In this document: piece after piece, positions 4,798 to 62,453 of the stretch
Layout: the number at the start of each line of letters is the position of its first letter
How positions within the stretch are numbered: the stretch's first letter is position 1
NCBI GenBank assembly: GCA_022376925.1
Contig: JAIOJX010000025.1
Location: 94,205,608 to 94,269,607, forward strand
Reading direction: 5' to 3'
Origin: Tragulus kanchil
Taxonomy: Eukaryota; Chordata; Mammalia; Artiodactyla; Tragulidae
DNA: 64,000 nt
The notes under the pieces: model-generated
Seen by the model: only the letters and a program-made list of their open reading frames with translations
What the model was told of the DNA's origin: nothing
The model's database searches: none
Program-made: the position numbers and the translations under genes

Positions 4798-4922
4798 TTG
4801 ATTGTATTTGCATTGTTGTGTTCTGAGAGCTTTTGTCTCCAAACGGCTATGGTTTCATCATTTATTAAACTGGTGTAATGTGCTTGGTTCATTGTTCTGA
4901 AGTCAACAGCAGGGGAAGAATT
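4798..4922 (-). CDS. HERC3: HERC3 exon B (linker, 125 nt), complete copy
   Basis: The acceptor is CAATCCTTCAG (AG at 4924-4923) after a T-rich tract; the donor is GTATGTG (4797-4796). The exon starts in phase 0 with NSSPAVDFRTMNQAHYTSLI, continues NDETIAVWRQKL and ends NNANTI plus AA. That is 41 codons plus two bases, matching the 60-nt exon that follows. From memory, human HERC3 has tyrosine where this reads the first serine. Its 5' three-fifths recurs at 6013-6088. Confidence 0.93.
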
Positions 4923-7180
4923 CTGAAGGATTGAACATGACAGTAAAAAAAAGAAAAAAAAATTATGTAATAGCATGGCTTTTTTCTTCAACTCCCTCTC
5001 TCCACATAGTCCCCACTTTGTGTGTCACTTATGTACAGGAGCTAGGGTGCACTGTCCAGATCCTCCCACCCTTCAGAACGGACCACTCATACCCTCCTCA
5101 GCTGCCTCAGTGTAAGCTCCAGGCCTACCCTGGCTACGCTGGCCTCCAGGATACTCCCTCGCCTCTGGTTTCACTTCTTTCTTGCCCAGAGGCAGGTGCG
5201 GTGTGGAGCCAGGGCCCAGCTCCTCTGCCTCCAGTAGGATTTAAACCTGGGAAGCAGACTCTGAGCCTGAGATTTGTGTTCAGAAATTGGGGTGGGAGAA
5301 GTTCTAGAACAACATTTCCTTAGGGATGGAGGAAGTAGGACCAGGAAGAAGGGGAAGCTGAACTGCAGCTCAGTGCTCAGTGGTCCCCCTGGGGGGCTCT
5401 GCCTCTGGAGCTGGCATGGCCCTTCAGCGCACTCCCCAGAGAAACCAAACCAAGAGGACTGCTTCAGACTTCTTTCCTCCTCTGCTTTGAATCGCCACTT
5501 CAAGGCTTTTAAGTTACTAATCATTTGCCTTAACTGTTCACCAAACTCCAACAATATGTATTACAAAAAGTCAGGGTTCAGTGACAATCTATACTGCAAA
5601 TTGTCTATGAAAATGTAATGCCTCAATGTTTTGCTCGAAGTATACAGCTATAAATTTATAAACAAGGTAACAAAAAACATATGTAAATAATGACCCTGAA
5701 AATCCCAAATGCTGCCCAGCACTGTAATGTGTACAGCCTTTATTCAAAGAGACTTAAATATAATAATATAAGCACTTTTATTTCCTAAAATTGCTATTCT
5801 TCGAGTTATTTCTCCCCAAATCTATTTGTGATCTAGAACTACAGGAAAGTTTAAAGTACTTTATGTCTCCTATATGTGTCACTGGAAGAAAGGAAAAAAG
5901 CAATATTAAAACATTAACCAGATGATTTTTTTCTCCTTTATACTAACACATGAAAACACAACTTTCGAAATGGTTTTAAATGAATTAAGACAGCTTTAAA
6001 AAAAGTTTTATTCTATGGTTTCATCATTTATTAAACTGGTGTAATGTGCTTGGTTCATTGTTCTGAAGTCAACAGCAGGGGAAGAATTCTGAAGGATTGA
6101 ACATGACAGTAAAAAAAAGAAAAAAAAATTATGTAATAGCATGGCTTTTTTCTTCAACTCCTCTCTCCACATAGTCCCCACTTTGTGTGTCACTTATGTA
6201 CAGGAGCTAGGGTGCACTGTCCAGATCCTCCCACCCTTCAGAACGGACCACTCATACCCTCCTCAGCTGCCTCAGTGTAAGCTCCAGGCCTACCCTGGCT
6301 ACGCTGGCCTCCAGGATACTCCCTCGCCTCTGGTTTCACTTCTTTCTTGCCCAGAGGCAGGTGCGGTGTGGAGCCAGGGCCCAGCTCCTCTGCCTCCAGT
6401 AGGATTTAAACCTGGGAAGCAGACTCTGAGCCTGAGATTTGTGTTCAGAAATTGGGGTGGGAGAAGTTCTAGAACAACATTTCCTTAGGGATGGAGGAAG
6501 TAGGACCAGGAAGAAGGGGAAGCTGAACTGCAGCTCAGTGCTCAGTGGTCCCCCTGGGGGGCTCTGCCTCTGGAGCTGGCATGGCCCTTCAGCGCACTCC
6601 CCAGAGAAACCAAACCAAGAGGACTGCTTCAGACTTCTTTCCTCCTCTGCTTTGAATCGCCACTTCAAGGCTTTTAAGTTACTAATCATTTGCCTTAACT
6701 GTTCACCAAACTCCAACAATATGTATTACAAAAAGTCAGGGTTCAGTGACAATCTATACTGCAAATTGTCTATGAAAATGTAATGCCTCAATGTTTTGCT
6801 CGAAGTATACAGCTATAAATTTATAAACAAGGTAACAAAAAACATATGTAAATAATGACCCTGAAAATCCCAAATGCTGCCCAGCACTGTAATGTGTACA
6901 GCCTTTATTCAAAGAGACTTAAATATAATAATATAAGCACTTTTATTTCCTAAAATTGCTATTCTTCGAGTTATTTCTCCCCAAATCTATTTGTGATCTA
7001 GAACTACAGGAAAGTTTAAAGTACTTTATGTCTCCTATATGTGTCACTGGAAGAAAGGAAAAAAGCAATATTAAAACATTAACCAGATGATTTTTTTCTC
7101 CTTTATACTAACACATGAAAACACAACTTTCAAAGTAAATTTTATTGGCTATTTTCTCAGAGTTATGAATTAAGACAGCA
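4847..7180. repeat. Tandem direct duplication 1 (unit about 1.17 kb)
   Basis: 4847-6012 is repeated from 6013 to about 7180, offset 1166 then 1165. One C is lost after 4990. The last 45 bases of copy 1 (5966-6012) are a garbled, shortened version of 7130-7180, sharing tgaattaagacagc. It truncates HERC3 exon B in the second copy. Confidence 0.95.
6013..6088 (-). pseudogene. HERC3: Partial second copy of HERC3 exon B (no donor)
   Basis: This copy keeps the acceptor and the first 25 codons of exon B (NSSPAVDF to NDETI). It is cut off at the duplication junction at 6012/6013, after which the frame stops. There is no splice donor, so it could not be a working internal exon. It is best read as the start of an untrimmed overlapping contig and not as a biological exon duplication. 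Confidence 0.85.
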
Positions 7181-7275
7181 TTATAAGGAGAAAAGAAGAG
7201 GGCATGTAACAAACGACAGCTGCCAAAGTTTACCATCATTTCGCTTTTGACAATTATTTTATATATATTTATATA

Positions 7276-7395
7276 ATTGGACAAAGGGGTCCAGCTGCTC
7301 CGCGGCATGTGGGATCTGCCCAGGCCCGGGATGGAACCAGTGCCTCTTGCACTGCAAGGCGGACTCTCCACCCACTGGACCACCAGGGAAGCCCC
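7276..7395 (-). mobile_element. CHR-like SINE, truncated
   Basis: Only the head half is present (gtccagctgctccgcggcat to ccaccagggaagcc). Confidence 0.85.
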
Positions 7396-8362
7396 AGTTT
7401 ATTTTTTTTATCTTACATTTTTTAAAGCATATAACTCTTCCACAGTTGTCTAAACTTTAACCTGCCCTGTTTCTACAGCAAGGTGCTACTTTCACTTCCT
7501 TCTCATCAATGTGTTGTTCTCCAGTGCTACCAACATTAGTTACAATAAATTTAAAATCCAACTACATGCATCAAGTACCGTATTTACAAAAGGAAACTAA
7601 GTTTTATGCTGAATTTCACAAGAAAATTAAAGTTGGTTAAGCAAACCAGTTTGTTAGCAAAATGAATACTTTAAACTCTACTACTTATGGACACGAAGTT
7701 ATTATCCTACAGGGATTCAGGGCTTTTCATATTTTGCTTTATTGGCATGTAAAAGAAAGAATAGTTTTCTCAAGGTTTCTCTGTGAAGCACTGAAGCACA
7801 GCCTAAAATAGGTCTGAAGCAACAGCTCCAACTCAGCCCAGATGGCTGTACTCAACAGAACCTTCTCCAGCATCCTGACCTGCAATATATCTGACTCTCA
7901 GACTCAGCTGTCCAACCTGCAGTCCTCCACCACGACTTTCTGCAATATTCTGACTAGAAAATCCCAAATGCTACTGTAATGTGTACAGCCTTTATTCAAA
8001 GAGACTTAAATATAATAATATAAGCACTTTTATTTCCTAAAATTGCTATTCTTCGAGTTATTTCTCCCCAAATCTATTTGTGATCTAGAACTACAGGAAA
8101 GTTTAAAGTACTTTATGTCTCCTATATGTGTCACTGGAAGAAAGGAAAAAAGCAATATTAAAACATTAACCAGATGATTTTTTTCTCCTTTATACTAACA
8201 CATGAAAACACAACTTTCAAAGTAAATTTTATTGGCTATTTTCTCAGAGTTATGAATTAAGACAGCATTATAAGGAGAAAAGAAGAGGGCATGTAACAAA
8301 CGACAGCTGCCAAAGTTTACCATCATTTCGCTTTTGACAATTATTTTATATATATTTATATA

Positions 8363-8482
8363 ATTGGACAAAGGGGTCCAGCTGCTCCGCGGCATGTGGG
8401 ATCTGCCCAGGCCCGGGATGGAACCAGTGCCTCTTGCACTGCAAGGCGGACTCTCCACCCACTGGACCACCAGGGAAGCCCC
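8363..8482 (-). mobile_element. CHR-like SINE, truncated (duplicate copy)
   Basis: Second copy of the element at 7276, offset 1087. Confidence 0.85.
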
Positions 8483-9420
8483 AGTTTATTTTTTTTATCT
8501 TACATTTTTAATGCATATAACTCTTCCACAGTTGTCTAAACTTTAACCTGCCCTGTTTCTACAGCAAGGTGCTACTTTCACTTCCTTCTCATCAATGTGT
8601 TGTTCTCCAGTGCTACCAACATTAGTTACAATAAATTTAAAATCCAACTACATGCATCAAGTACCGTATTTACAAAAGGAAACTAAGTTTTATGCTGAAT
8701 TTCACAAGAAAATTAAAGTTGGTTAAGCAAACCAGTTTGTTAGCAAAATGAATACTTTAAACTCTACTACTTATGGACACGAAGTTATTATCCTACAGGG
8801 ATTCAGGGCTTTTCATATTTTGCTTTATTGGCATGTAAAAGAAAGAATAGTTTTCTCAAGGTTTCTCTGTGAAGCACTGAAGCACAGCCTAAAATAGGTC
8901 TGAAGCAACAGCTCCAACTCAGCCCAGATGGCTGTACTCAACAGAACCTTCTCCAGCATCCTGACCTGCAATATATCTGACTCTCAGACTCAGCTGTCCA
9001 ACCTGCAGCCTCAGACTCCACCACGACCTTTTCTATCAAAGTCAGAGAATGATTCTGACTAGAAGGCAAGAATATCGTGTACTGAGAGATGGCACAGTAT
9101 GTGAGTTACAGAGAGTTTCCAGCACCAACAGGGCCCCTGGCGTCCACAGAACCTCATTTTTCTTCCCAACCTATTCTGATTCCTTTGTCATCACTAGTCC
9201 TTCCCTGCTCCTCCAGGGGGAGGTCAAAGATCAATGCACTACCTATGGCTGATCCTCCCTAAGCACTGACTAAATAAAGAAGGGCGGATAGGGGAAGGGG
9301 GGCAAGGCAGAGAGGAGCATAAGAGCAGTGGGGTGTAGAGGACAGCAAACACACCTGTGGTGCTCACTGCAGACTGATTTTTCTCATCCAGTATGAGGAG
9401 AATGAATTAAGCCCTGTCAC

Positions 9421-9533
9421 AGACAGCATCACCGACTCAAAGAACATGAATTTGAGCAAACTCCTGGAGCCAGTGCTGAGGTCCACTGGGTTGCAAAGAG
9501 TTGGACACAAATAGCAACTGAACAACAACACAG
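9421..9533 (+). mobile_element. BovB 3' tail fragment
   Basis: Matches the end of BovB: agcatcaccgactcaaagaa, a gagtttgag-like stretch, then gcaaagagttggacac and an aactgaac-type tail. Confidence 0.7.
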
Positions 9534-10510
9534 ATACCTGAGAAAAATGTCATTTTTCCTGCTTACCCATCACAGGAATATAGGAGACAACCTGAGGGAA
9601 ATTTTAGTGAGGTTTCATGCCCAAATGATAAATAATAAAGGATATCTGAACACTGTGGCACCTCACATTCACTATATACTCAATCACATCAAACAAGTCC
9701 AGCAATTTCTCAAACACTTAGCATTTGTTGCTGCTTATCAGGGAAGGAAAGAATGGAAAGTCAAACAATCTCAAAGTAAGTATGAATTCTCTGAGGTTTT
9801 TCCTTAAATCCTTTTTTTTTTAGAACTCTGTGAAAAAAAATTATCCAGCTATAGTAATACTTAAACTACTTATGGACGAAGTTATTATCCTACAGGGATT
9901 CAGGGCTTTTCATATTTTTTGCATGTAAAAGAAAGAATAGTTTTCTCAAGGTTTCTCTGTGAAGCACTGAAGCACAGCCTAAAATAGGTCTGAAGCAACA
10001 GCTCCAACTCAGCCCAGATGGCTGTACTCAACAGAACCTTCTCCAGCATCCTGACCTGCAATATATCTGACTCTCAGACTCAGCTGTCCAACCTGCAGCC
10101 TCAGACTCCACCACGACCTTTTCTATCAAAGTCAGAGAATGATTCTGACTAGAAGGCAAGAATATCGTGTACTGAGAGATGGCACAGTATGTGAGTTACA
10201 GAGAGTTTCCAGCACCAACAGGGCCCCTGGCGTCCACAGAACCTCATTTTTCTTCCCAACCTATTCTGATTCCTTTGTCATCACTAGTCCTTCCCTGCTC
10301 CTCCAGGGGGAGGTCAAAGATCAATGCACTACCTATGGCTGATCCTCCCTAAGCACTGACTAAATAAAGAAGGGCGGATAGGGGAAGGGAGGCAAGGCAG
10401 AGAGGAGCATAAGAGCAGTGGGGTGTAGAGGACAGCAAACACACCTGTGGTGCTCACTGCAGACTGATTTTTCTCATCCAGTATGAGGAGAATGAATTAA
10501 GCCCTGTCAC

Positions 10511-10623
10511 AGACAGCATCACCGACTCAAAGAACATGAATTTGAGCAAACTCCTGGAGCCAGTGCTGAGGTCCACTGGGTTGCAAAGAGTTGGACACAA
10601 ATAGCAACTGAACAACAACACAG
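10511..10623 (+). mobile_element. BovB 3' tail fragment (duplicate copy)
   Basis: Second copy of 9421-9533, offset 1090. Confidence 0.7.
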
Positions 10624-11153
10624 ATACCTGAGAAAAATGTCATTTTTCCTGCTTACCCATCACAGGAATATAGGAGACAACCTGAGGGAAATTTTAGTGA
10701 GGTTTCATGCCCAAATGATAAATAATAAAGGATATCTGAACACTGTGGCACCTCACATTCACTATATACTCAATCACATCAAACAAGTCCAGCAATTTCT
10801 CAAACACTTAGCATTTGTTGCTGCTTATCAGGGAAGGAAAGAATGGAAAGTCAAACAATCTCAAAGTAAGTATGAATTCTCTGAGGTTTCCTTAAATCTC
10901 TTTGGGACAAATCCAGCTATAAGTAAATAATTTTCAATTATAAATTAGAACTCTGTGATTAAATACCAAGAAAATTACTGGCACTTCAAGGAAACACAAT
11001 GGAGATTACCTCAAGGTTTAGTTGGCTTATTTCAATAATATAAAATTGGCAGAAACAAAGAGTAATGTTGCTCTCATGTACTTTTATCTGTTAAAATAAA
11101 TATTGATTCACCATTATTCCAGCCCCAAGATAATAGTGAAACGAAAAATTTAC

Positions 11154-11230: not shown

Positions 11231-12235
11231 CTGTCAAGAAATTTTCAAGAGCTTATTTTTCAACAATTGAAGTTTTTCCTTGACCCCCTTTTCTAATATT
11301 CCAAAATATGCTTCAGAGTGGTTTCCTATCCATTTAATTATGCCGGAGAAGTAAGAAACCTCCTCTCCTGGCTCTCTTCCCAGGACTGTTTCTACTTCAG
11401 TTAAAACTAAATATATAAAACTCTATCTTCCACTCTAACCCTCTCTCCCTCTTGCCAGCTACCGGCTAGTCCTGACCCTGTTTCTATTTTTCATTCTACC
11501 TCTGTCATGCCCTGAACTGAAGTTTAAAACGGTCACTACTATAAACCGTAACATGTGCTAACATATCACTGAGTATCTGACTGCGGTGGTCTGCAGCCCC
11601 TTCTGGATGAAGCTTACCACAGAAGGACTTTCTCGTCCTGCTCCTGCTCTGCCTCCCATCACATCGTGTCCACAGTGACACTCTCACGCCACCGCCTCAC
11701 TTATTTCTAATATACCACACTACCTGGTACCTCAATGCCTTTCCTCTCTACCACTCCCAGAGCACACTGCGTCTCCACGAATGGCGCCCTCTAGAGCATG
11801 GCTGGAAAGGTGCTCCTGGAATCCAGCAGTTCAAAGGTACTCACCACTGCTCACCCGCCCATGCTGCTCTACCTGGCTGACTCCAAACCATCCCTAGGAT
11901 ACAGCTTAAACTTCCCCTCTTGGGAATTCTGTGCTCCCACACTACCATGAGGGTTCCTGAAACCACAGTATTTACATAACAAATTGAAACTCACCTACTT
12001 ACATTATAAGTTATGCAGTAATTAAACTTCAAAAAGTTTGTGGTTTAAAATTAACCTGTATACTGCAGCTTTTTTTTTTAATTGGTATATTTCCTAGATA
12101 TATACTTTCCTAACGTAAGTACAATGTCTTAGAGAAAAAGAAAGTTACAAATGATAGAGAAGAGTATGCCCAGCCATTTTTCCACTTTCAGGACCATCAC
12201 CAAACAAAACCAAGTTCCACTACACTTTTAAATGC

Positions 12236-12365
12236 TCATATATTCATTTCATAAATATTTACTGACTGAGAAGTTTGTGCCAGGCCCTGTGCTATATGCC
12301 AGGTTTACAACAAAGAAATGACTCTGTCCCTGTACTTAAGTTTCTCATAATCCAGTAGGGAACTT
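12236..12365 (-). mobile_element. L2-like relic
   Basis: The reverse of the L2 3' end, with aaatatttactgactgagaa and gtgccaggccctgtgctat. Confidence 0.6.
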
Positions 12366-13354
12366 AAAATTGTTATTGTTCAACAATTGAAGTTTTCCTT
12401 GACCCCCTTTTCTAATATTCCAAAATATGCTTCAGAGTGGTTTCCTATCCATTTAATTATGCCGGAGAAGTAAGAAACCTCCTCTCCTGGCTCTCTTCCC
12501 AGGACTGTTTCTACTTCAGTTAAAACTAAATATATAAAACTCTATCTTCCACTCTAACCCTCTCTCCCTCTTGCCAGCTACCGGCTAGTCCTGACCCTGT
12601 TTCTATTTTTCATTCTACCTCTGTCATGCCCTGAACTGAAGTTTAAAACGGTCACTACTATAAACCGTAACATGTGCTAACATATCACTGAGTATCTGAC
12701 TGCGGTGGTCTGCAGCCCCTTCTGGATGAAGCTTACCACAGAAGGACTTTCTCGTCCTGCTCCTGCTCTGCCTCCCATCACATCGTGTCCACAGTGACAC
12801 TCTCACGCCACCGCCTCACTTATTTCTAATATACCACACTACCTGGTACCTCAATGCCTTTCCTCTCTACCACTCCCAGAGCACACTGCGTCTCCACGAA
12901 TGGCGCCCTCTAGAGCATGGCTGGAAAGGTGCTCCTGGAATCCAGCAGTTCAAAGGTACTCACCACTGCTCACCCGCCCATGCTGCTCTACCTGGCTGAC
13001 TCCAAACCATCCCTAGGATACAGCTTAAACTTCCCCTCTTGGGAATTCTGTGCTCCCACACTACCATGAGGGTTCCTGAAACCACAGTATTTACATAACA
13101 AATTGAAACTCACCTACTTACATTATAAGTTATGCAGTAATTAAACTTCAAAAAAAGTTTGTGGTTTAAAATTAACCTGTATACTGCAGCTTTTTTTTTT
13201 AATTGGTATATTTCCTAGATATATACTTTCCTAACGTAAGTACAATGTCTTAGAGAAAAAGAAAGTTACAAATGATAGAGAAGAGTATGCCCAGCCATTT
13301 TTCCACTTTCAGGACCATCACCAAACAAAACCAAGTTCCACTACACTTTTAAAT

Positions 13355-13487
13355 GCTCATATATTCATTTCATAAATATTTACTGACTGAGAAGTTTGTG
13401 CCAGGCCCTGTGCTATATGCCAGGTTTACAACAAAGAAATGACTCTGTCCCTGTACTTAAGTTTCTCATAATCCAGTAGGGAACTTA
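13355..13487 (-). mobile_element. L2-like relic (duplicate copy)
   Basis: Second copy of 12236-12365. Confidence 0.6.
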
Positions 13488-13723
13488 AAATTGTTATTGT
13501 TAAAATTCTGATTAAGCCATAACTGTGCCACTTTATAGTCCTCAAAACCAGTTATTTTTTAGAAAAAGTTATTAAATCACACTTCTTTATAATGACTCTC
13601 CATCTCCCTTTAAGCTTCTGAATTTATTATGTCAAGTCACTCTTACTGAATGACGGCCTTAGTTTGGTTTCCAGTGAAATGAACACTGTGCTATTTACCT
13701 ATTTTTTAAGAAAAGAAAAATGG

Positions 13724-14059
13724 GGGCTTCCCCTGGTGGTCCAGTGGGTAAGGACACCGCCTTGCAGTGCAAGGGGCGCCGGTTCGATCCCTGGCCTGGG
13801 AAGATCCCACGTGCCGGGGAGCGGCTAGACTGATGTGTCCAATCACCGAGCCAGAGCTCTGGAGTGCCTGCACCCAGAGCCGGCGCTCTGCAACAACAGA
13901 TGCCACCGCGATGGGAGGCCCGCAGGAGCCAAAAGAACAAAGACGGATGAAAAACAGAGAAATGAAAGACCAATAGAAGTGGCCCGCCCACTCCCCTCCC
14001 TCCCCAACCTGACCCCACCAAAAAAATAAATAAATAAATAAATCTTTAAAAAAAAAAAA
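13724..14059 (+). mobile_element. CHR-like SINE, full length with target-site duplication
   Basis: A complete element from ggcttcccctggtggtccag through the B-box-like ggttcgatccc to an (AAAT)n and poly-A tail. It is flanked by 16-base repeats aagaaaagaaaaatgg at 13708-13723 and 14060-14075, so this is a recognisable retroposition event. Confidence 0.93.
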
Positions 14060-14139
14060 AAGAAAAGAAAAATGGCATGAAAAAATAATTGTGTCATATT
14101 GTTACCAAAATAGCAATCATAAAGGAAAGGTACCACAGT

Positions 14140-18063: not shown

Positions 18064-18895
18064 CTGAAATCAGAAGAAAATAACTGGTGTGACCAGAAAG
18101 ATACGAGTTCCATTCACAAAATAACCTTGTTAGAATGATGGAGCTGCCCAGAGGCTCATTTTTTAGTTACCCCACACATACACACCCAAGAGAAAGGGAG
18201 GAGACACACTTCATGGTGTGAGACTCCCACAATCAAAACCCCTACTTGTCATGACAACACAGAGCTCAACACCCTTCACAGGTTATTTAGGTAAAGCAAA
18301 AACCTAAATGTTTAGGTCAGTTCAGGGTTGAAAAGGTCAATTACCAAGCTTAGATCCACTAAGCAAGGGGAACTAGTTCTGATCATACGAGAACAATAAG
18401 AGACCTGGGACCTCATGGGGTCCAGCTATGACCTGGATGACTCCACAGGGAATCAAGCAGGATGTGTAAGCACTGACATGATAAACTTGGGGAGAACAAG
18501 CTTATCCTAACAAAATATAGCATTAGTTGTTGGCTTAGGTTTTTCTAACTCCTTTTACATTTATTTGGGCACTTTATGGTTGAATAGTCACATGAGCTGT
18601 AGCTAAGAAAAGCCAGTCCTCTGCTCAAGTACACTGATGTACAGTCCTGCTTCCTGCTCACTTTTCCCGAGACAGAGAGCTGGAACAGCTATGATGACCA
18701 CCTTCTTCAGCATCCACACCCTGCGAAAAGTATGAACCTCATCAAGGCTATCTGAGAACTGCCACTGTCCAACAGGAATGCACAGAACCTAACTAGTTAG
18801 TTCAAGGTATCCAGTTACATAATATCACATAAAAATGCAGAGAGAAATGGTTCCCAAATTAACACAACACTAGATAGATTTTAACATTATATTAC

Positions 18896-18972
18896 CAGCT
18901 GCAAGAGCCAAGCAATGCCAGTTGCCACAGGAAACTTGTAATATTGTCTGCTGGTTCAGCTTTTGTATTAAC
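18896..18972 (-). CDS. HERC3: HERC3 exon H (RCC1 repeat, 77 nt), copy 1
   Basis: The acceptor is GTTTTAG (AG at 18974-18973), the donor GTAATA (18895-18894). It starts with G, completing arginine AG|G, then LIQKLNQQTILQVSCGNWHC and LALAA plus G, which completes aspartate with exon G. VSCGNWHCLAL is a blade core. The exon lies inside a tandem duplication and recurs unchanged at 20069-20145. At 77 nt it is not a multiple of three, so including both copies would shift the frame. Confidence 0.94.
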
Positions 18973-20068
18973 CTAAAACAGAAAAGACTTTCCTCTTAAG
19001 AAGGGCATTCACAATCATCAGAAATTATATCCAACGAAATAAAACAGCCATAATAAACAACATCTTTCATAAAATACTTTTTAAAATCAAATATATAATC
19101 TTACATAATTCTGTTAAGCCTTTCACTAACCTCTGCCTCTTAGGTAGTTACCACTTAAAAGAAAGAAACCCTGGTCTTCACTTAAATGCACAACCTTCTG
19201 TTAATTTCTACCTTGTTATCTTCAATTCAGGGACAAAAGGAGTAAACTATCAAAGAAATTGCTAAGAACATGGCTAATATCTAAATGGATTTCAAATGAG
19301 AGCAATGACATGATCCAGCAATCTCACCTATCCAAGCAGTGAGTTTCTAATCATTCTACTAAGAGAAAGGGAGGAGACACACTTCATGGTGTGAGACTCC
19401 CACAATCAAAACCCCTACTTGTCATGACAACACAGAGCTCAACACCCTTCACAGGTTATTTAGGTAAAGCAAAAACCTAAATGTTTAGGTCAGTTCAGGG
19501 TTGAAAAGGTCAATTACCAAGCTTAGATCCACTAAGCAAGGGGAACTAGTTCTGATCATACGAGAACAATAAGAGACCTGGGACCTCATGGGGTCCAGCT
19601 ATGACCTGGATGACTCCACAGGGAATCAAGCAGGATGTGTAAGCACTGACATGATAAACTTGGGGAGAACAAGCTTATCCTAACAAAATATAGCATTAGT
19701 TGTTGGCTTAGGTTTTTCTAACTCCTTTTACATTTATTTGGGCACTTTATGGTTGAATAGTCACATGAGCTGTAGCTAAGAAAAGCCAGTCCTCTGCTCA
19801 AGTACACTGATGTACAGTCCTGCTTCCTGCTCACTTTTCCCGAGACAGAGAGCTGGAACAGCTATGATGACCACCTTCTTCAGCATCCACACCCTGCGAA
19901 AAGTATGAACCTCATCAAGGCTATCTGAGAACTGCCACTGTCCAACAGGAATGCACAGAACCTAACTAGTTAGTTCAAGGTATCCAGTTACATAATATCA
20001 CATAAAAATGCAGAGAGAAATGGTTCCCAAATTAACACAACACTAGATAGATTTTAACATTATATTAC

Positions 20069-20145
20069 CAGCTGCAAGAGCCAAGCAATGCCAGTTGCCA
20101 CAGGAAACTTGTAATATTGTCTGCTGGTTCAGCTTTTGTATTAAC
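20069..20145 (-). CDS. HERC3: HERC3 exon H, copy 2 (probably false duplicate)
   Basis: Same 77 bases as 18896-18972, 1173 bases further on, with both splice sites intact. Only one of the two can belong in a normal HERC3 transcript. The most likely explanation is that both represent one genomic exon in an untrimmed contig overlap. Confidence 0.85.
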
Positions 20146-20483
20146 CTAAAACAGAAAAGACTTTCCTCTTAAGAAGGGCATTCACAATCATCAGAAATTA
20201 TATCCAACGAAATAAAACAGCCATAATAAACAACATCTTTCATAAAATACTTTTTAAAATCAAATATATAATCTTACATAATTCTGTTAAGCCTTTCACT
20301 AACCTCTGCCTCTTAGGTAGTTACCACTTAAAAGAAAGAAACCCTGGTCTTCACTTAAATGCACAACCTTCTGTTAATTTCTACCTTGTTATCTTCAATT
20401 CAGGGACAAAAGGAGTAAACTATCAAAGAAATTGCTAAGAACATGGCTAATATCTAAATGGATTTCAAATGAGAGCAATGACA

Positions 20484-20984
20484 TGATCCAGCAATCTCAC
20501 CTATCCAGAAGAGCTGAAAGCAGGGTCCCAAAGAGATATTTATACATCCACATTCATTGAAGCATTACTCACAAAAGCCATAGGTGGAAGGAACCCAAGT
20601 GTCCATCAACAGATGACCAGACAAACAAGTGTGGTATATACGTTTGGAATATGTATATAATGGAATATTCATCACCTTTAAGAATGGAAACTCTACACTG
20701 CTACAATGTAGATGAAACTTGGCCATTATGTGAAGTGAAATAAACCAGTAACAGAAAGACAAATCCTATTTCCATTTATGTCCTAGACATATCTAGACTA
20801 GCCAAATTCATACAAAAGTCTAATGGTATCTGCTAGAGGAGGAGAAATGAGAAGTTTTCTTTTAATGAGTGTAGAGTTCTATTTCTACAAGATAAAAAAG
20901 TTTTGGAGACTGTTCACACAACAATGTGCATATACTTAACAGTACTGGACTGTAGACCTAAAATGGTTAGGATGGTAAATTCTT
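20484..20984 (+). mobile_element. L1 3'-end fragment
   Basis: Contains the conserved L1 stretch: agaagagctgaaagcagggt, caagtgtccatcaacagatg, gaagtgaaataaaccagtaa, ending near gtagacctaaaatggttagg. The coding capacity is gone. Confidence 0.85.
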
Positions 20985-21368: not shown

Positions 21369-21404
21369 AATTAAAAAACAAACAAACAACAAAAAAAATA
21401 CTTC

Positions 21405-21508
21405 AGGCTTCCCTGGTAGCTCAGTGGTAAAGCGTTCACCTGCCAATGCAGGAGACATGGGTTTGATCCCTGATCCGGGAAGACCCACATGCTGAGGAAG
21501 CATAACCC
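21405..21508 (+). mobile_element. CHR SINE, cut by duplication junction
   Basis: Begins ggcttccctggtagctcagt and breaks off at the junction near 21509. The uncut version is at 22492. Confidence 0.88.
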
Positions 21509-21570
21509 ATCAAAGAAATTGCTAAGAACATGGCTAATATCTAAATGGATTTCAAATGAGAGCAATGACA

Positions 21571-22455: not shown

Positions 22456-22491
22456 AATTAAAAAACAAACAAACAACAAAAAAAATACTTC

Positions 22492-22840: not shown

Positions 22841-22851
22841 CATCTTTGTTT

Positions 22852-45531: not shown

Positions 45532-46912
45532 CCTCAGTAGCCTAGAACTCCATGATCACGTAGAAATTTACAAGGGTTTTAGGAGCCTTGTGGAAGGAAC
45601 AGGGCCATGTGGGTGGGTGGGTGTGCACACACAAAATGGAGATTATATGTATAACAGAGTTTTATATATTATAATATATAGGATTGTAAAATTATATTAG
45701 GATTATACATATAATTCTATTATATATTATATAATAAGATTTATACATATAAAACATCCATATATATACTAAAAACATTTATATAAAGCATTCTTACATG
45801 CACAAATCCTATTATCTCACAAACATTCTCATCCTCCCAATTTTCACCACATACTTTTAAACACAAGGACTATTTCACTCTTTAGAGCTCAAATATTTTA
45901 ACTTAATACAAAGACAACCAAAACCCATGGATAATCCAAAAGAGAATTCAAAAAGACCTTCTACATGAAATCACAAAATACACTGAGAAGTTGACATGTT
46001 TTAACTGTACAACCACAACAAAATACTTTCCACTCCACTTCTTTTCTGAGAAGCTATGTTAAAAGTCTCTATTGCTTACTCACCATTTAAACTATAGTAA
46101 ATGTAAAAACTATCTTTGATTAAATCAAAATTATACAGATAAGTTGATCAGCTTTTCGGAAGAAAATGAAGGACCAGAAAATCAAAGTTATGACGCAAAT
46201 CCAGTTTATACCTCCAAAAAAAGTAAACAACAGACACCTCAAGTTAGTATACTAGCAAACAGTATAAACTGTAAGGCAAGCATTTTGACAATGACAGAAA
46301 CTTTAGAATTGTGCATATTCATTGATCCAACACTCAAATTTCTAAATGTGTCCTAAAGAAATACTATATACTGCATTGCTACTAACAACAACAACAAAAA
46401 TTTGGTATACACTGTTAATTGAAAATGTAGCTATTAAAAAGACTGATATAAATCAGTGTGAGTATCATGGGAAAATATTTATGACATATTAAGTGGAAGA
46501 GAAAGTTACAAAGAAGTACTGTGATGTAACTCCATTTGAAAATTACACTGATGTTTAAAAATATTTGAACGATACATTTCAAACTAATAACAATTTTTTT
46601 TGTTGTTCAGAGTGATAGAATTAAAGAGTAAAATACTCTACTTCTCTTTCCTTATGGGTATTTAAACTGAGAGCAATAACATGATTACTTTTATAATATG
46701 GAAAATTTTTAAGCTTTTATAAAAGGACTTTTTACCAATTCCCTTTCTTATTCATATCTTTTTTCAATAACACTCTTTTTTATTCAGTGTGATGCAGCAA
46801 CAGGAAACCATTTCCAAGACTGCTGATGGCGTACTATTTTAGACTATATGCTACCTTATAAACAATATCACTTTCTAATCACAATGCAAGAGGCAAGATA
46901 AGGTGTTTCTGG

Positions 46913-47252
46913 GGGGCTTCCCCTGGTGGTCCAGTGGATAAGGACACCGCCTTGCAGTGCAAGGGGCGCCGGTTCGATCCCTGGCCTGGGAAGATCCCAC
47001 GTGCCGCGGAGCGGCTGGACCGATGTGTCCAATCACCGAGCCAGAGCTCTGGAGCGCATGTGCCCAGAGCTGGCACTCTGCGACAACAGACGCCACCGCG
47101 ATGGGAGGCCCACAGGAGCCAAAGAACAAAGACGGATGAAAACGGAGAAATGAAGGACCAATGGAAGTGGTCCGCCCACTCCCCTCCCTCCCCAACCCGA
47201 CCCCCTGCCCAAAATAAATAAATAAATAAATAAATCTTTAAAAAAAAAAAAA
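46913..47252 (+). mobile_element. CHR-like SINE, full length with target-site duplication
   Basis: Nearly the same sequence as the element at 13724. Tail is (AAAT)n then poly-A. Flanked by perfect 13-base repeats aaggtgtttctgg at 46900-46912 and 47253-47265. Low divergence suggests a relatively young insertion. Confidence 0.94.
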
Positions 47253-47614
47253 AAGGTGTTTCTGGAGAGGCTTCCTAAGCATACTAAACCCTACTAGATG
47301 TTTATAGATTCAGGCAAAGTATCCCTGCACTGAGATCAATCTACGAAATTGTAGCCCTCTGTCTACAGGAAACAATGAATATCATCCTGGATAAAGAATG
47401 ATATTTCATTATGTTAAAATGAACAATTCCTCAAGAAGATATGAAGATCTTAATTGTGTGAACACCCCAAAAAAGAGCTTGAAAATACATCTAGCAAAGC
47501 TCAGTCAGAAGAAATTAGCAAATCAGCAATGACAGTCAAAATTTCAACACTATTCTCTCAGTAATTGATAAAAAGTAGAACTTGCAGGGGGAAGGAAATG
47601 CTTGGGGACTTTGG

Positions 47615-50790: not shown

Positions 50791-51431
50791 ATATACTCTG
50801 AAGATTTACCAAAAAGCTACATAATCAACATAGTGTAGAACTAATGATAGACATATACATTCAAAGAATAAAAGGTCTAGAGAGATAGACCACCACACAT
50901 ACAGTCAATTAGTTCTCAAAGGTTCCAAAGTAATTTGGCGTAGGATTAAGTCTTTCCAACAATGATCCTCAAAACTGGATATCCATAAGCAAAAAATGAA
51001 CACTGACCATTATTAAAATAGGTCACAGATCTAAATTTAAGAGCTAAACTATAAAATCTGAAGAAGAAAACTTAGGAGAATAATCAGTATAATCTTGAGT
51101 TAGGAAAACTTTAGGACATAGAAAGCATTAGTTATAAAACTAATAATTGAACTTCATTGAAATAAAATTTTTGCTCTTCAAAAGACACTTAAGAATATGA
51201 AAAGGAAAACCACTAATTGAAAGAAAGTATTTGTAAAATATCTCTGATAAAAGACTTGTATACTGAATAAGTATACAACAAAATTACATCTCAAAAATAA
51301 GACAAGCAATTTGAGTTTTTTCTAGTGAGTCTTAAACAAATTTACCCAAGTAAAGCTCTTAAAAGAATGGCTGGTAGATAGAAGCAGCAGTGTAAATGTT
51401 CATTATTCTCCCCCACTGGCAATTTGACTTT

Positions 51432-51657
51432 TTTATTAAACTTTGGCCGCTTTTATTGGTATTTTATTTATTTCCTCAGCCTGTGCGGGCCTCCCATTGC
51501 AGTGGCCGCTCTCATTGCAGAGCAATGGCTCTGGGTGCATGCGCTCCAGAGCGCAGGCTTGTAACTGGAGCAGGAGTCCAGCTGCTGCATGGCACATGGG
51601 ACCTTCCCAGGCCAGGGATGGAACAGACTCTTTACCCACTGGACCACCAGGGAAGCT
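51432..51657 (-). mobile_element. CHR-like SINE in L1, copy 1
   Basis: ctgtgcgggcctcccattgc to ggaccaccagggaagctc, with an internal deletion near the head. Confidence 0.87.
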
Positions 51658-52486
51658 CTGATTTTTTTTTAAACAGGCAAATAACTTGGCCAAAAACAAA
51701 ACATACAAATGGCTGAAAACAAGCACATGAGATGTTGCTCAAAATCATTAGTCATCAGCAAAATGCATATTAAAATTACAAGGAGATTTAATTATATATT
51801 AATTTGAATAGCTAAATTAAGAAGATTGCAGGGATATACATATTTGTAAAAATCTAAGAAGATTTACCAAAAGCTACATAATCAACATAGTGTAGAACTA
51901 ATGATAGACATATACATTCAAAGAATAAAAGGTCTAGAGATAGACCACCACACATACAGTCAATTAGTTCTCAAAGGTTCCAAAGTAATTTGGCGTAGGA
52001 TTAAGTCTTTCCAACAATGATCCTCAAAACTGGATATCCATAAGCAAAAAATGAACACTGACCATTATTAAAATAGGTCACAGATCTAAATTTAAGAGCT
52101 AAACTATAAAATCTGAAGAAGAAAACTTAGGAGAATAATCAGTATAATCTTGAGTTAGGAAAACTTTAGGACATAGAAAGCATTAGTTATAAAACTAATA
52201 ATTGAACTTCATTGAAATAAAATTTTTGCTCTTCAAAAGACACTTAAGAATATGAAAAGGAAAACCACTAATTGAAAGAAAGTATTTGTAAAATATCTCT
52301 GATAAAAGACTTGTATACTGAATAAGTATACAACAAAATTACATCTCAAAAATAAGACAAGCAATTTGAGTTTTTTCTAGTGAGTCTTAAACAAATTTAC
52401 CCAAGTAAAGCTCTTAAAAGAATGGCTGGTAGATAGAAGCAGCAGTGTAAATGTTCATTATTCTCCCCCACTGGCAATTTGACTTT

Positions 52487-52712
52487 TTTATTAAACTTTG
52501 GCCGCTTTTATTGGTATTTTATTTATTTCCTCAGCCTGTGCGGGCCTCCCATTGCAGTGGCCGCTCTCATTGCAGAGCAATGGCTCTGGGTGCATGCGCT
52601 CCAGAGCGCAGGCTTGTAACTGGAGCAGGAGTCCAGCTGCTGCATGGCACATGGGACCTTCCCAGGCCAGGGATGGAACAGACTCTTTACCCACTGGACC
52701 ACCAGGGAAGCT
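52487..52712 (-). mobile_element. CHR-like SINE in L1, copy 2
   Basis: Second copy of 51432-51657, offset 1055. Confidence 0.87.
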
Positions 52713-54310
52713 CTGATTTTTTTTTAAACAGGCAAATAACTTGGCCAAAAACAAAACATACAAATGGCTGAAAACAAGCACATGAGATGTTGCTCAAAAT
52801 CATTAGTCATCAGCAAAATGCATATTAAAATTACAAGGAGATTTAATTATATATTAATTTGAATAGCTAAATTAAGAAGATTGCAGGGATATACATATTT
52901 GTAAACAAAACTCTGCAAAAGTAAAGAGTAAAATAAAAATAATTATATAAAAAAGATTGATGATACCAAGTGATGGTGAGAATGGGAGCAATTCTTACAA
53001 ACTCCTATTATGAATGTAAAATGGTATAGTCACTAGAAATCTGAGTTCCTTATGAAGTCAAACATACACTTATTATATGAACCAACAATCCTCATTCTAG
53101 GAAACTTCCAGAAAATGAAAACATATGTCTACACAAATATTTGTACTCAAACATTCATAGGAATTTTACTCAAAAGAGCCCAAACCTGGAAAACACCCAA
53201 ATGTCCATCAACTGGTTAATGGATAAACAATGTTCTATGTCCCTAACATGGAACAATACTCAGCAAGCAAAAGTACTGAAGCAACAAGGCAGAAAGAATC
53301 TCAAAAACATCATTCTAACAAGCCAGACACAAAAGCCTACTTAATGCATGATTTCATTTATATAAAATTCTAAAAGTGTCAAAATTAGGGTGACAATAAA
53401 GCAGATATATGGAAAGTACTTGGTGTGGAAATGGAATAGACTACAAAGGGCATAAGAGACGTTTTGGTGGATGAAAAAATATCCTCTATCATGACTACAG
53501 TGGTGGTTATTTGATTCTCTGACTTCAAAACGCATTAAATTGTACACTCAAAATGGGTGAATCCTACTGTATATAAATGATATTTCAACAGAGCTGTTTA
53601 AAGTATACCAGAAAAAAAAATGAGGTCATAAAAATCGTTTTAGATATCAGGTATCAAAAAAAAGTAGGACTCCTTTTAGCACTCAAGTTCACTCTGACTG
53701 AAGAGGCAAATGAGGCACATGAACTGATACTATACCACAGTATGGTGAATGACACATGTGCAGACTGCTGAAAGCAGCCCATGTGAGAAGTATTCAATTC
53801 AGCCTCAGCGCTGGGGAGAGTTAGGGTAAGTTCCTTGGAAGAGGTAACATCCAAGATATGCCCTGAGCAATAAAGAGCTAGTTACTTAGTCATTCACCTA
53901 CCCATTCGAAGTGATCCAAAGTCTGTAACAGCAGATCTGAAGACTATATTATAATGAACTTAAAGTCCAAAGACAAATGAGTAAAGCATAGTATGCGAGA
54001 ATAAAAGATGAGTAAACAAAACCAGCCTGAGAGGGCCTAGGGAAAACTTCTTGGAGTAAACACTCAAGAGTCTCTAAAGTGATTGAAGTGATTAACAGAA
54101 AATAAGCAGCTGAATCCCTTAGAAAACTTTTAAACACATATACCTGTGTCCATTCCAGTTTCCAGAATCAGAAAATTTAGAGAAGAACAGACATCTGTTA
54201 TTGTTCTTTTATTTTTTTAATTGCCCAGGTGATTCTGATATTAAGAAACACTGCATTGAAAAGCTTCACAACACCAGATTTGGCAACAATTTCTTGGTTA
54301 GGACACCAAG

Positions 54311-54513
54311 TGTTAGGTGTTCAGTCATCTCCAACTCTTGGCAACTTCGTGGATCATAACTTGCCAGGCTCCTCTGTTGATGGGATTCTCCAGGCAATAA
54401 TACTGGAGTGGATTGCCATTCCCTTCTCCAGGGAATTTTCCCAACCCAGGGATCAAACCCAGGTGTCCTGCATTGCAGGCAGGTTCTTTACCATCTGAGC
54501 CACCAGGGCGGCC
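54311..54513 (-). mobile_element. Bov-tA-type SINE, antisense, copy 1
   Basis: Reversed body aggcaataatactggagtgg and head ttaccatctgagccaccagg. Confidence 0.9.
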
Positions 54514-54802
54514 ACAAAGACAGAAGCGACAAAACACAAAAGAGACAAATTTAAGTATTTTGTGCATCAAAAGATACTATCAACAGAGTGAAAAGACAAA
54601 CCACAAAAATGAGAGAAAATTTTTCCAACTCACATATTTTAATAAGGGAATAATATTCAAAACACATACAGAACTTCTAAAATTCAGCAAAAAACCTAAT
54701 TCAAAAACTGACAAAGGACTTAAATAGACATTTCTCCCAAGAACATATACAAATGGCCAATAAACGTATGTAAAGATTCTCAGTATCACTAATCACTGCA
54801 TT
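54514..54802 (+). mobile_element. L1 ORF2-region fragment, copy 1
   Basis: ttttgtgcatcaaaagatac, tcaacagagtgaaaagacaa, gacatttctcccaagaacat are sense L1. The copy is at 55609-55897. Confidence 0.78.
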
Positions 54803-54947
54803 CGTGCTCAGCCACTAAATTATGTCTGACTCTTCGGATCCACGGACTGTAGTGCACCAGGCTCCTCTGTCCATGGAATCTTCTAGGCAAGAATACTGGA
54901 GTAGGTTGCCATTTCTTCCTCCAGGGGATCTTCCCGACCCAGGAATT
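54803..54947 (-). mobile_element. Bov-tA-type SINE, cut by duplication junction
   Basis: Tail and body only; the head is missing because duplication 17 restarts at 54948. Confidence 0.87.
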
Positions 54948-55405
54948 AAGATATGCCCTGTGCAATAAAGAGCTAGTTACTTAGTCATTCACCTACCCAT
55001 TCGAAGTGATCCAAAGTCTGTAACAGCAGATCTGAAGACTATATTATAATGAACTTAAAGTCCAAAGACAAATGAGTAAAGCATAGTATGCGAGAATAAA
55101 AGATGAGTAAACAAAACCAGCCTGAGAGGGCCTAGGGAAAACTTCTTGGAGTAAACACTCAAGAGTCTCTAAAGTGATTGAAGTGATTAACAGAAAATAA
55201 GCAGCTGAATCCCTTAGAAAACTTTTAAACACATATACCTGTGTCCATTCCAGTTTCCAGAATCAGAAAATTTAGAGAAGAACAGACATCTGTTATTGTT
55301 CTTTTATTTTTTTAATTGCCCAGGTGATTCTGATATTAAGAAACACTGCATTGAAAAGCTTCACAACACCAGATTTGGCAACAATTTCTTGGTTAGGACA
55401 CCAAG

Positions 55406-55608
55406 TGTTAGGTGTTCAGTCATCTCCAACTCTTGGCAACTTCGTGGATCATAACTTGCCAGGCTCCTCTGTTGATGGGATTCTCCAGGCAATAATACTG
55501 GAGTGGATTGCCATTCCCTTCTCCAGGGAATTTTCCCAACCCAGGGATCAAACCCAGGTGTCCTGCATTGCAGGCAGGTTCTTTACCATCTGAGCCACCA
55601 GGGCGGCC
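55406..55608 (-). mobile_element. Bov-tA-type SINE, antisense, copy 2
   Basis: Second copy of 54311-54513, offset 1095. Confidence 0.9.
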
Positions 55609-55897
55609 ACAAAGACAGAAGCGACAAAACACAAAAGAGACAAATTTAAGTATTTTGTGCATCAAAAGATACTATCAACAGAGTGAAAAGACAAACCACA
55701 AAAATGAGAGAAAATTTTTCCAACTCACATATTTTAATAAGGGAATAATATTCAAAACACATACAGAACTTCTAAAATTCAGCAAAAAACCTAATTCAAA
55801 AACTGACAAAGGACTTAAATAGACATTTCTCCCAAGAACATATACAAATGGCCAATAAACGTATGTAAAGATTCTCAGTATCACTAATCACTGCATT
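55609..55897 (+). mobile_element. L1 ORF2-region fragment, copy 2
   Basis: Second copy of 54514-54802. Confidence 0.78.
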
Positions 55898-56100
55898 CGT
55901 GCTCAGCCACTAAATTATGTCTGACTCTTCGGATCCACGGACTGTAGTGCACCAGGCTCCTCTGTCCATGGAATCTTCTAGGCAAGAATACTGGAGTAGG
56001 TTGCCATTTCTTCCTCCAGGGGATCTTCCCGACCCAGGAATTGAACCCACATCTCCTGCATTAGCAGGCAGATTCTTTCCCACTGAGCCACCTGGGAAGC
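55898..56100 (-). mobile_element. Bov-tA-type SINE, antisense, complete
   Basis: The uncut version of the element at 54803, ending gagccacctgggaagc. Confidence 0.9.
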
Positions 56101-58350: not shown

Positions 58351-58699
58351 AGCATCTCATGGCACCAACAGTGTGTCTGAAACTGATTCACAAATACTTC
58401 AGACTCTCAAAGCACATCTGGTAAACCTGATGCAGGAGAGCACGGCGGGTTTCTAGGGGTGACTTTCTGTCTCAGGTCCTTCACATGTGAGGACATGCAG
58501 ATCATTACAGCCACCAGGCAAATGTATGGACAGCTGAAGCTGTGCGAACCTACCTACAACAAATGAATCACACACAGCAGCCACCGGAAGGGGAAATGAG
58601 AGGTCCATAGTTCATTAAAACAAAGTATGGGCTTGACTTTATTTGTACAAGAAAGAGATTCTACACTCCTTAATTACTATACTCCTTAATTAACTCTTT

Positions 58700-58830
58700 T
58701 TTTCACAGTACAGTCATTTATTCAAACAATAATTACTAAAGATTGTGTTTATTATGTGCAATATACCATTCTAAGTACTGAAGATACAAAAAAACAAAGC
58801 TATGACGCTCATGGAGCTTAAACAAATATG
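58700..58830 (-). mobile_element. L2-like relic, copy 1
   Basis: cagtcatttattcaaacaat, gtttattatgtgcaatatac, gctcatggagcttaaac are the reversed L2 end. Confidence 0.55.
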
Positions 58831-59783
58831 AAGGAGAGATGGGATATAAACAAATATGAATGTAGTATATCAGATAGGGATAAACTGTGAAGAAAAACAA
58901 AGCAGGGATTAAAAATAAACAGATGCTGGGGGAGGGAGCAAGTGTAGGCAATACACAGGGTAGTAAAAGGAGGGGAGGGGAGAAGGAGCACAGATGACTT
59001 CCAAGGTTTTGGCTTGAAGAATAGAACTGCCATTTACAATAAGAGAAAAACGAAATGAGGAGTAGGATTAAAGGAAAAAAATCAGTTTGGTTTGAATATG
59101 TTAAATTTAAGATGCCAATTATACATCTAAGTGAAGATTTTAAGTGGACATAAAGCCTGAAATGCTGTTATGTAGAGGCTGGAAATAATTGGTGAGTCAA
59201 CAGTGTAAAGACATACTTAAAGCTTTACCTGTGACTATCCATAATTCAACCTATTCCCTAGAGGATGAGTAAGCTGTTTCTGCTATTTTGCCACTAAAAA
59301 CAATGCTGCAGTAAGCATCCTTAGAAATAGTTCCTTATGCTATACACCGACATTTTCATTTGAGTAAGGAAGCTTCCTAAAATGGAACTGCTGATTCAAA
59401 AGGTATGACCATTTTAAATTTTATTAAAACAGCCAGTTGATTTATAAAAGGGCTGTAGAAGCTCACACCTCCTAGCAATGCCTCAGACTCTCAAAGCACA
59501 TCTGGTAAACCTGATGCAGGAGAGCACGGCGGGTTTCTAGGGGTGACTTTCTGTCTCAGGTCCTTCACATGTGAGGACATGCAGATCATTACAGCCACCA
59601 GGCAAATGTATGGACAGCTGAAGCTGTGCGAACCTACCTACAACAAATGAATCACACACAGCAGCCACCGGAAGGGGAAATGAGAGGTCCATAGTTCATT
59701 AAAACAAAGTATGGGCTTGACTTTATTTGTACAAGAAAGAGATTCTACACTCCTTAATTACTATACTCCTTAATTAACTCTTT

Positions 59784-59914
59784 TTTTCACAGTACAGTCA
59801 TTTATTCAAACAATAATTACTAAAGATTGTGTTTATTATGTGCAATATACCATTCTAAGTACTGAAGATACAAAAAAACAAAGCTATGACGCTCATGGAG
59901 CTTAAACAAATATG
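59784..59914 (-). mobile_element. L2-like relic, copy 2
   Basis: Second copy of 58700-58830, offset 1084. Confidence 0.55.
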
Positions 59915-60270
59915 AAGGAGAGATGGGATATAAACAAATATGAATGTAGTATATCAGATAGGGATAAACTGTGAAGAAAAACAAAGCAGGGATTAAAAAT
60001 AAACAGATGCTGGGGGAGGGAGCAAGTGTAGGCAATACACAGGGTAGTAAAAGGAGGGGAGGGGAGAAGGAGCACAGATGACTTCCAAGGTTTTGGCTTG
60101 AAGAATAGAACTGCCATTTACAATAAGAGAAAAACGAAATGAGGAGTAGGATTAAAGGAAAAAAATCAGTTTGGTTTGAATATGTTAAATTTAAGATGCC
60201 AATTATACATCTAAGTGAAGATTTTAAGTGGACATAAAGCCTGAAATGCTGTTATGTAGAGGCTGGAAAT

Positions 60271-62453
60271 AATTGGTGAGTCAACAGTGTAAAGACATAC
60301 TTAAAGCTTTACCTGTGACTATCCATAATTCAACCTATTCCCTAGAGGATGAGTAAGCTGTTTCTGCTATTTTGCCACTAAAAACAATGCTGCAGTAAGC
60401 ATCCTTAGAAATAGTTCCTTATGCTATACACCGACATTTTCATTTGAGTAAGGAAGCTTCCTAAAAATGGAACTGCTGATTCAAAAGGTATGACCATTTT
60501 AAATTTTATTAAAAACAGCCAGTTGATTTATAAAAGGGCTGTAGAAGCTCACACCTCCTCAATCATGATACAACTGCCCATTTCCCAAGACCAGTAAGCA
60601 GTGAATATTACTCTTAAATTTTTTGCCAACCAAATGGTTGAAAAAGAAAAAAAAAATGATACCTTGTTATAATTTCACTGAACACACTTGCATATATTCT
60701 TTGGTTATCTGCAAGCATTCCTGTGTAAAATGTTCATTTTACAGAGCTGCTTATCTTTTCAATTTGAAGATGCACTGGTATTATCAGAAATATAAAACCT
60801 TTATCTGGTAGTTTGTGGCAATTATTTTCCCAGTCTGTGACTTGTCATTTCACTTATGAATGCCTTATATCATAGAAAAAAATTTATGTTCATGCAAATC
60901 TGCCGATCATTTACTTTATGACTTCTAAACCACTTGTCTCACTTTAGAAGCCCCAAGCTTCTAAATACATTCTCCTATTATTTTTGTTGTTTTACCTTTG
61001 ACATTTATGTCTTTCGTACATTTGGAAGTTACTTTTGATTATAGAATAAGTTAAGGGGTCTAGGTGTGTTTAGAGGTGCCAGTTATCATATGCCTGACTT
61101 GTCTGTGCAGCCATGCAGTTTTGACCAGAAAATATTCTTCTTAAAAACCTAAGGAAAGGCAAAGTGTCCCAGTACTTTATATAATCAGGCAAATCATACC
61201 GAAATGTAAAATTCAGAGGCAAGAATGCATTCAGGGAAGGGGAACAACAATAAAAGTGAAAGACGACAAGCACAGCTTTCTCTTGACTTGTGGCTCTAGC
61301 CTCCATGATGATCCATCCAAAGCAAGCGACAGAAGGCAGGCAAAAAGCAGAAAAGATCCCCTAATTGGTGAGTCAACAGTGTAAAGACATACTTAAAGCT
61401 TTACCTGTGACTATCCATAATTCAACCTATTCCCTAGAGGATGAGTAAGCTGTTTCTGCTATTTTGCCACTAAAAACAATGCTGCAGTAAGCATCCTTAG
61501 AAATAGTTCCTTATGCTATACACCGACATTTTCATTTGAGTAAGGAAGCTTCCTAAAATGGAACTGCTGATTCAAAAGGTATGACCATTTTAAATTTTAT
61601 TAAAAACAGCCAGTTGATTTATAAAAGGGCTGTAGAAGCTCACACCTCCTCAATCATGATACAACTGCCCATTTCCCAAGACCAGTAAGCAGTGAATATT
61701 ACTCTTAAATTTTTTGCCAACCAAATGGTTGAAAAAGAAAAAAAAAATGATACCTTGTTATAATTTCACTGAACACACTTGCATATATTCTTTGGTTATC
61801 TGCAAGCATTCCTGTGTAAAATGTTCATTTTACAGAGCTGCTTATCTTTTCAATTTGAAGATGCACTGGTATTATCAGAAATATAAAACCTTTATCTGGT
61901 AGTTTGTGGCAATTATTTTCCCAGTCTGTGACTTGTCATTTCACTTATGAATGCCTTATATCATAGAAAAAAATTTATGTTCATGCAAATCTGCCGATCA
62001 TTTACTTTATGACTTCTAAACCACTTGTCTCACTTTAGAAGCCCCAAGCTTCTAAATACATTCTCCTATTATTTTTGTTGTTTTACCTTTGACATTTATG
62101 TCTTTCGTACATTTGGAAGTTACTTTTGATTATAGAATAAGTTAAGGGGTCTAGGTGTGTTTAGAGGTGCCAGTTATCATATGCCTGACTTGTCTGTGCA
62201 GCCATGCAGTTTTGACCAGAAAATATTCTTCTTAAAAACCTAAGGAAAGGCAAAGTGTCCCAGTACTTTATATAATCAGGCAAATCATACCGAAATGTAA
62301 AATTCAGAGGCAAGAATGCATTCAGGGAAGGGGAACAACAATAAAAGTGAAAGACGACAAGCACAGCTTTCTCTTGACTTGTGGCTCTAGCCTCCCCATG
62401 ATGATCCATCCAAAGCAAGCGACAGAAGGCAGGCAAAAAAGCAGAAAAAGATC
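60271..62453. repeat. Tandem direct duplication 19 (unit 1.09 kb)
   Basis: 60271-61362 recurs from 61363, offset 1092 then 1091. The A-runs and C-runs near 61350/62440 and a CC near 62395 differ. It overlaps duplication 18, so about 290 bases starting at 59187 occur three times. Confidence 0.96.
60300..61080 (-). mobile_element. Probable old L1 3' sequence, antisense
   Basis: acaatgctgcagtaagcatc, aatggaactgctgattcaaa and tctgtgacttgtcatttcac read like a reversed old L1 3' region. Related sequence is at 59220-59470 and 61390-62170 because of duplications 18 and 19. Confidence 0.5.

Follow-up and report, generated by a model that had tools for sequence, protein, structure and literature searches.

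Tandem repeats of about 1.1 kb across the HERC3 region of a Tragulus kanchil genome assembly are very probably an assembly artefact

In the genome assembly of Tragulus kanchil (GCA_022376925.1), we analysed a stretch of 64,000 bases on contig JAIOJX010000025.1 (C8:94205608-94269607, hereafter the window), which carries the gene HERC3 on its minus strand and a series of direct tandem repeats with a period of about 1.1 kb. The assembly consists of 3,167,203,957 bases in 32 contigs, 16 of them longer than 50 Mb, and Tragulus has 2n = 32 chromosomes, which fits the 16 large contigs. One reading frame of the window matches RCC1 repeats in Pfam; among the seven window frames scanned, none but this HERC3 frame gave a match at E <= 0.1. 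A protein search ranked long RCC1-repeat proteins of other kinds first by score, whereas by identity mammalian HERC3 entries came out on top, mostly at 94-97%, and ruminant HERC3 proteins placed ten exons, covering residues 76-486, in the window.

An initial annotation had reported 19 junctions at which the sequence jumps back by 1058 to 1203 bases and repeats itself. We checked the repeats in three ways, by exact 25-mer seeds, by base-by-base comparison of the cores and by self-blastn, and all 19 were verified, with blastn periods of 1058-1203, the very range proposed, and second-copy starts at most 8 bases from the positions given. Collapsing the repeats removes 21,168 of the 64,000 bases, so that the estimate of about 21 kb of surplus sequence was also borne out. 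Core identity between copies is 99.06-100% in the base-by-base comparison, with five of the 19 cores free of any difference, and when blastn extends the copies to the junctions, 18 units are 98.5-100% identical and unit 10 is 96.3% identical. At E <= 1e-20, self-blastn of the window gave 26 direct matches of at least 97% identity, made up of 18 units and eight pairs whose distances are sums of two adjacent periods, and no inverted match of at least 97%; chance is not an issue here, since every such direct match is a unit or a two-period sum and none is inverted. The closest non-tandem repeats in the window are interspersed copies at 13722-14061 and 46912-47253, which are 92.7% alike.

From left to right, the units are as follows: unit 1 at 4847-7134 (copies 4847-5969 and 6013-7134), unit 2 at 6863-9030 (6863-7939 and 7957-9030), unit 3 at 8766-10903 (8766-9814 and 9865-10903), unit 4 at 11253-13504 (11253-12383 and 12373-13504), and unit 5 at 18188-20507 (18188-19334 and 19361-20507), whose copies are identical and contain a HERC3 exon. 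They continue with unit 6 at 20416-22601 (20416-21512 and 21503-22601), unit 7 at 22201-24425 (22201-23315 and 23314-24425), unit 8 at 25767-28009 (25767-26885 and 26891-28009), which also contains a HERC3 exon, unit 9 at 27915-30076 (27915-28996 and 28995-30076), and unit 10 at 31215-33549 (31215-32387 and 32408-33549), the most frayed. The remainder are unit 11 at 33265-35495 (33265-34383 and 34377-35495), unit 12 at 35098-37256 (35098-36176 and 36178-37256; identical), unit 13 at 38604-40775 (38604-39678 and 39699-40775), unit 14 at 40649-42953 (40649-41806 and 41796-42953), unit 15 at 43852-46254 (43852-45054 and 45055-46254), unit 16 at 50800-52905 (50800-51850 and 51858-52905), unit 17 at 53853-56042 (53853-54947 and 54948-56042), unit 18 at 58393-60559 (58393-59473 and 59477-60559) and unit 19 at 60270-62456 (60270-61361 and 61362-62456). 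To these 19 the present analysis adds three features that the initial annotation did not have: a 20th unit that spans the left edge of the window, with its first copy at -1554 to -417 and its second at -412 to 727 (1-727 within the window); triple copies, seen with 25-mer seeds and self-blastn wherever adjacent overlaps themselves overlap; and degraded sequence of up to 133 bases between the copies in 16 of the 19 units.

The repeats double parts of HERC3. Mapping of the ruminant proteins places the exon for residues 76-129 twice on the minus strand (26382-26543 and 27505-27666), as it does the exon matching residues 122-154 (18897-18995 and 20070-20168). The exon for residues 378-427 lies at 4788-4937, also on the minus strand, and its second copy (6014-6103) is cut short by the unit boundary after residue 407, while the exon for residues 444-486 (97-225, minus strand) has its other copy to the left of the window at C8:94204568-94204702. 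Four of the ten window exons are doubled wholly or partly, one of them being cut in mid-exon, and each doubled segment is single in the three ruminant HERC3 orthologues compared. Across the whole gene there are seven doubled exon matches, five of them from a whole-genome search and a further two from the mapping to the window. The whole-genome search with HERC3, in which 42 of 175 candidates were scored, gave 43 matches, of which 23 fall in 11 same-strand groups on C8, C6 and C2 where the same stretch of protein recurs 1071-1172 bases apart, the spacing on C2 being derived from residue numbers. In one of these groups (residues 834-899), residues 853-899 occur three times at C8:94170923-94173388, with spacings of 1127 and 1141, as is expected where two overlaps overlap.

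The same repeats are found well beyond this locus. We sampled one 10-kb stretch on each of 14 chromosome-scale contigs (140 kb; C31, C32 and the small contigs were left out), and all 14 contained them, with 35 junctions in the 140 kb, some cut by the ends of the stretches, and second copies making up 24.5% of the bases. A contiguous 104 kb around the window has 30 junctions. Over these 15 sampled places the 65 periods lie between 1058 and 1203, with a mean of 1114.7, so that all 65 fall in one size range, and in the sampled stretches no other match of at least 94% identity and at least 100 bases was found, direct matches at 2.0-2.45 kb being excluded as two-period sums. Likewise, four doubled pairs, 1082-1151 bases apart, occur among 24 matches to insertions of mitochondrial cytochrome b, and a 20-base pattern chosen arbitrarily matches the assembly exactly at just two sites, 1,071 bases apart. 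The initial annotation was right in calling its repeats an artefact, and the fault is wider than the single locus that it described, being present in every chromosome-scale contig sampled.

The differences between copies are not spread evenly over the units. We measured them by aligning the end of one unit with the start of the next and binning by distance from the unit end, and for the 19 window junctions the rate falls from 13.4% within 10 bases of the end through 9.7, 4.4, 3.1, 1.5 and 0.5% to 0.17% beyond 150 bases, where 27 of 15,599 bases differ (12 substitutions and 15 insertions or deletions). That measure used a fitted split point. Repeating it with the plain midpoint, which can misassign a few bases and so inflates the figure nearest to the end, gave, in the window, 20.3% in the bin nearest to the end and 0.18% in the innermost one, and for 36 junctions outside it 20.6, 11.6, 2.2, 1.2, 0.9, 0.4 and 0.22%. 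The difference rate therefore depends on the distance from the breakpoint, whereas a biological tandem duplication would be expected to show no such dependence, and the gradient is what independently built consensus pieces would show if support ran thin at their ends, and not what duplicated DNA would show. The degraded spacers agree with their flanks in most cases, 12 of the 16 non-empty ones fitting them better than all 60 random placements. Two of the spacers (9800-9920 and 32335-32467) contain unusual runs of A and T, for example of eight to ten letters, that the corresponding flanks lack, as might happen if ill-supported ends were padded during consensus calling. Deep inside unit 13, about 120 G-rich bases (38885-39003 versus 39980-40097) hold nine differences, mostly substitutions, in which this unit differs from the others; perhaps one copy was separately mis-polished.

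From the assembled letters, the best interpretation is that the window repeats are an assembly artefact, very probably absent from the animal, because the same repeats occur at 14 of 14 loci, the unit ends are frayed and exons are doubled. The claim of untrimmed overlap rather than biology, made in the initial annotation, is supported by the same recurrence, by differences that rise toward the unit ends, by HERC3 exons both doubled and truncated, and by the doubled mitochondrial insertions. In the mechanism that we propose, the assembly would have been built from separately computed consensus units, with about 1.1 kb in common between adjacent ones. Many of these overlaps would then not have been collapsed when the units were joined: the next unit would have been written after the previous one, which doubles the sequence that they share, or triples it where one overlap runs into another. 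The degraded bases at the junctions would be the poorly supported ends of both units. Some observations weigh against this interpretation, which is drawn from the assembled sequence: the fraying is uneven, with one difference in five of the 19 window junctions and none in three of the 36 outside; and four of the 16 spacers (units 1, 5, 6 and 12) match their flanks no better than random placements do.

If the repeats were instead real tandem duplications, duplication must have occurred independently at a great number of places, always with the same unit size. The copies are present in the deposited sequence, and the few single-base differences could be old mutations, but 65 of 65 junctions at 15 places share one size range, the difference rate tracks the distance from the unit ends, the breakpoints cut exons, and the ruminant HERC3 orthologues have the doubled segments once; we consider a biological origin so improbable that it can be given almost no weight. 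Nor is it credible, or only barely so, that two haplotypes were laid side by side (a heterotype duplication): heterozygosity might account for some of the differences between copies, but five of the 19 cores are identical, and neither the fixed size nor the concentration of differences at the ends would be explained. It is also unlikely that overlapping contigs were placed end to end, untrimmed, by a scaffolder or gap filler. The outward result would be identical, and overlaps of this kind are known near contig boundaries from passages of a published study (PMC8081667), but steps of 0.7-7.5 kb would demand very small contigs throughout, one shared length is unexpected for ordinary overlaps, and there is no N in the window or in the fetched stretches (L001-L020), where scaffold joins usually leave gaps. 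The initial annotation had spoken of overlapping contigs or read chunks; the overlap stands, but contig-sized pieces do not, and since the steps of 0.7 to 7.5 kb are smaller than contigs, the pieces look like consensus units inside the assembler.

Which software step left the overlaps in place can be approached through the spacing of the units. In the graphs of the assemblers wtdbg and wtdbg2 a node stands for 1024 read bases, divided into 256-base bins; two nodes may share no more than 256 bases, and their starts are at least about 768 read bases apart. Successive edges have nodes in common, which the consensus program should merge. We measured steps as distances between overlap midpoints in collapsed coordinates, and the 43 steps range from 701 to 7520 bases, with nine at 701-830 and five at 984-1030. 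The minimum of 701 assembled bases agrees with the spacing of about 768 read bases if a difference of about 9% between read and assembly length is allowed, and a lack of short steps is to be expected if neighbouring nodes can share one bin. For the 34 steps below 2600 bases, a preference for multiples of 256 has P 0.001 at exactly 256 and P 0.03 with the unit left free, and for steps outside the window the values at 256 are P 0.0026 (n = 19) and P 0.03 (n = 25). An earlier measure, the length from junction to junction, was dropped for midpoint steps after it gave a null result; the steps outside the window carry most weight because the measure was changed after a failed test. As the hypothesis before testing was 256 times a factor left free, the P values obtained at exactly 256 err a little on the generous side and the free-unit values of 0.03-0.06 are cautious. 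Given the near-fixed overlap, the absence of any step below 701 bases and the modest preference for multiples of 256, we think it somewhat probable that the repeats come from unmerged wtdbg or wtdbg2 nodes.

Several results speak against this choice of program. The overlap tracts measure 1049-1203 bases with a mean of 1108, near, yet above, 1024; reads that extend beyond the node may account for the excess and would then explain the fraying too. When the unit is not fixed, P for the steps outside the window is 0.059 (n = 19) and 0.027 (n = 25); the window steps alone are weak, with P 0.10 (n = 15) and 0.13 (n = 18), although P is 0.02 for n = 9, and in a wide scan a unit near 204 fits them better. 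The junction-to-junction lengths showed no 256 unit, 67-94% of jittered sets doing equally well. Moreover, in the passages that report them, human PacBio assemblies made with wtdbg2 have 2.76-2.77 Gb and 158-251 structural errors (PMC8590762), and wtdbg2 assemblies elsewhere have 0.4-1.4% duplicated BUSCO genes (partial text of PMC13251582); such duplication is thus not what the program commonly produces, and because the benchmarked assemblies are not inflated, the merge would have to have failed in this particular run. Another ruminant was assembled with wtdbg 1.2.8, according to a passage of PMC10372904. A doubtful but possible alternative is that some program other than wtdbg cut or corrected the sequence in pieces of set overlap and then pasted them back: such a program would produce a fixed overlap and frayed ends just as well, and the 256 signal is modest, but steps that run from 701 to 7520 bases argue against plain fixed-length windows.

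In having an overlap near 1 kb, no steps shorter than about 0.7 kb, a certain preference for multiples of 256 and weak unit ends, the repeats resemble what wtdbg and wtdbg2 nodes would give, and they are unlike them in that shared nodes are normally merged, benchmarks, where passages of them bear on this, are not inflated, and the overlaps here exceed 1024. No account of such an artefact for wtdbg was found in the passages of open-licence literature examined. The nearest described phenomenon is homotype false duplication, which, in the passages of Rhie et al. (2021, PMC8081667) that treat it, arises near contig boundaries or from under-collapsed sequence, has about the length of a read and has been mistaken for exon duplication. 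The present repeats are alike in being near-identical adjacent copies of unique sequence, made by the assembly and looking like exon or segmental duplications; they appear unlike it in occurring every few kb inside chromosome-scale contigs and at about 1.1 kb. We regard them as an error of this kind on a smaller scale. If shared nodes did stay unmerged at many joins, as the balance of the evidence suggests, surplus sequence would make up about a quarter of the 3.17 Gb and include many exons, the period, frayed junctions and 256-base steps would jointly identify the program, and the repeats would represent a class of false duplication, on a scale smaller than contigs, that is, as far as we found, undescribed.

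The repeats have no biological meaning, and they amount to a moderate warning to users of the assembly. Exons that appear twice or in part would lead to spurious exon duplications, to gene models that are broken, to false differences in copy number and to ambiguous mapping. Should the 140 kb sampled be typical, about 0.8 Gb of the 3.17 Gb would not be real and the true genome would be near 2.4 Gb. The signature, one period with frayed junctions, is simple to screen for in other assemblies.

The cytochrome b matches include long insertions in nuclear contigs (C30:123080310-123081480, and others on C4, C5 and C2), with seven matches above 230 bits whose frames are open except for TGA; as TGA is their sole stop, they are open in the mitochondrial code. 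These stretches are recent mitochondrial insertions or misplaced mitochondrial sequence. A true deer, suggested by a single HERC3 residue in common with Cervus, was rejected as the source. The insertion on C30 is nearly complete, and a comparison that scored the 7,999 candidates with most shared words gave it 96% identity to Tragulus javanicus and no more than 92% to the other 119 matches listed of 7,995, so that a mouse-deer is likely, although the species itself may not be readable from a nuclear copy.

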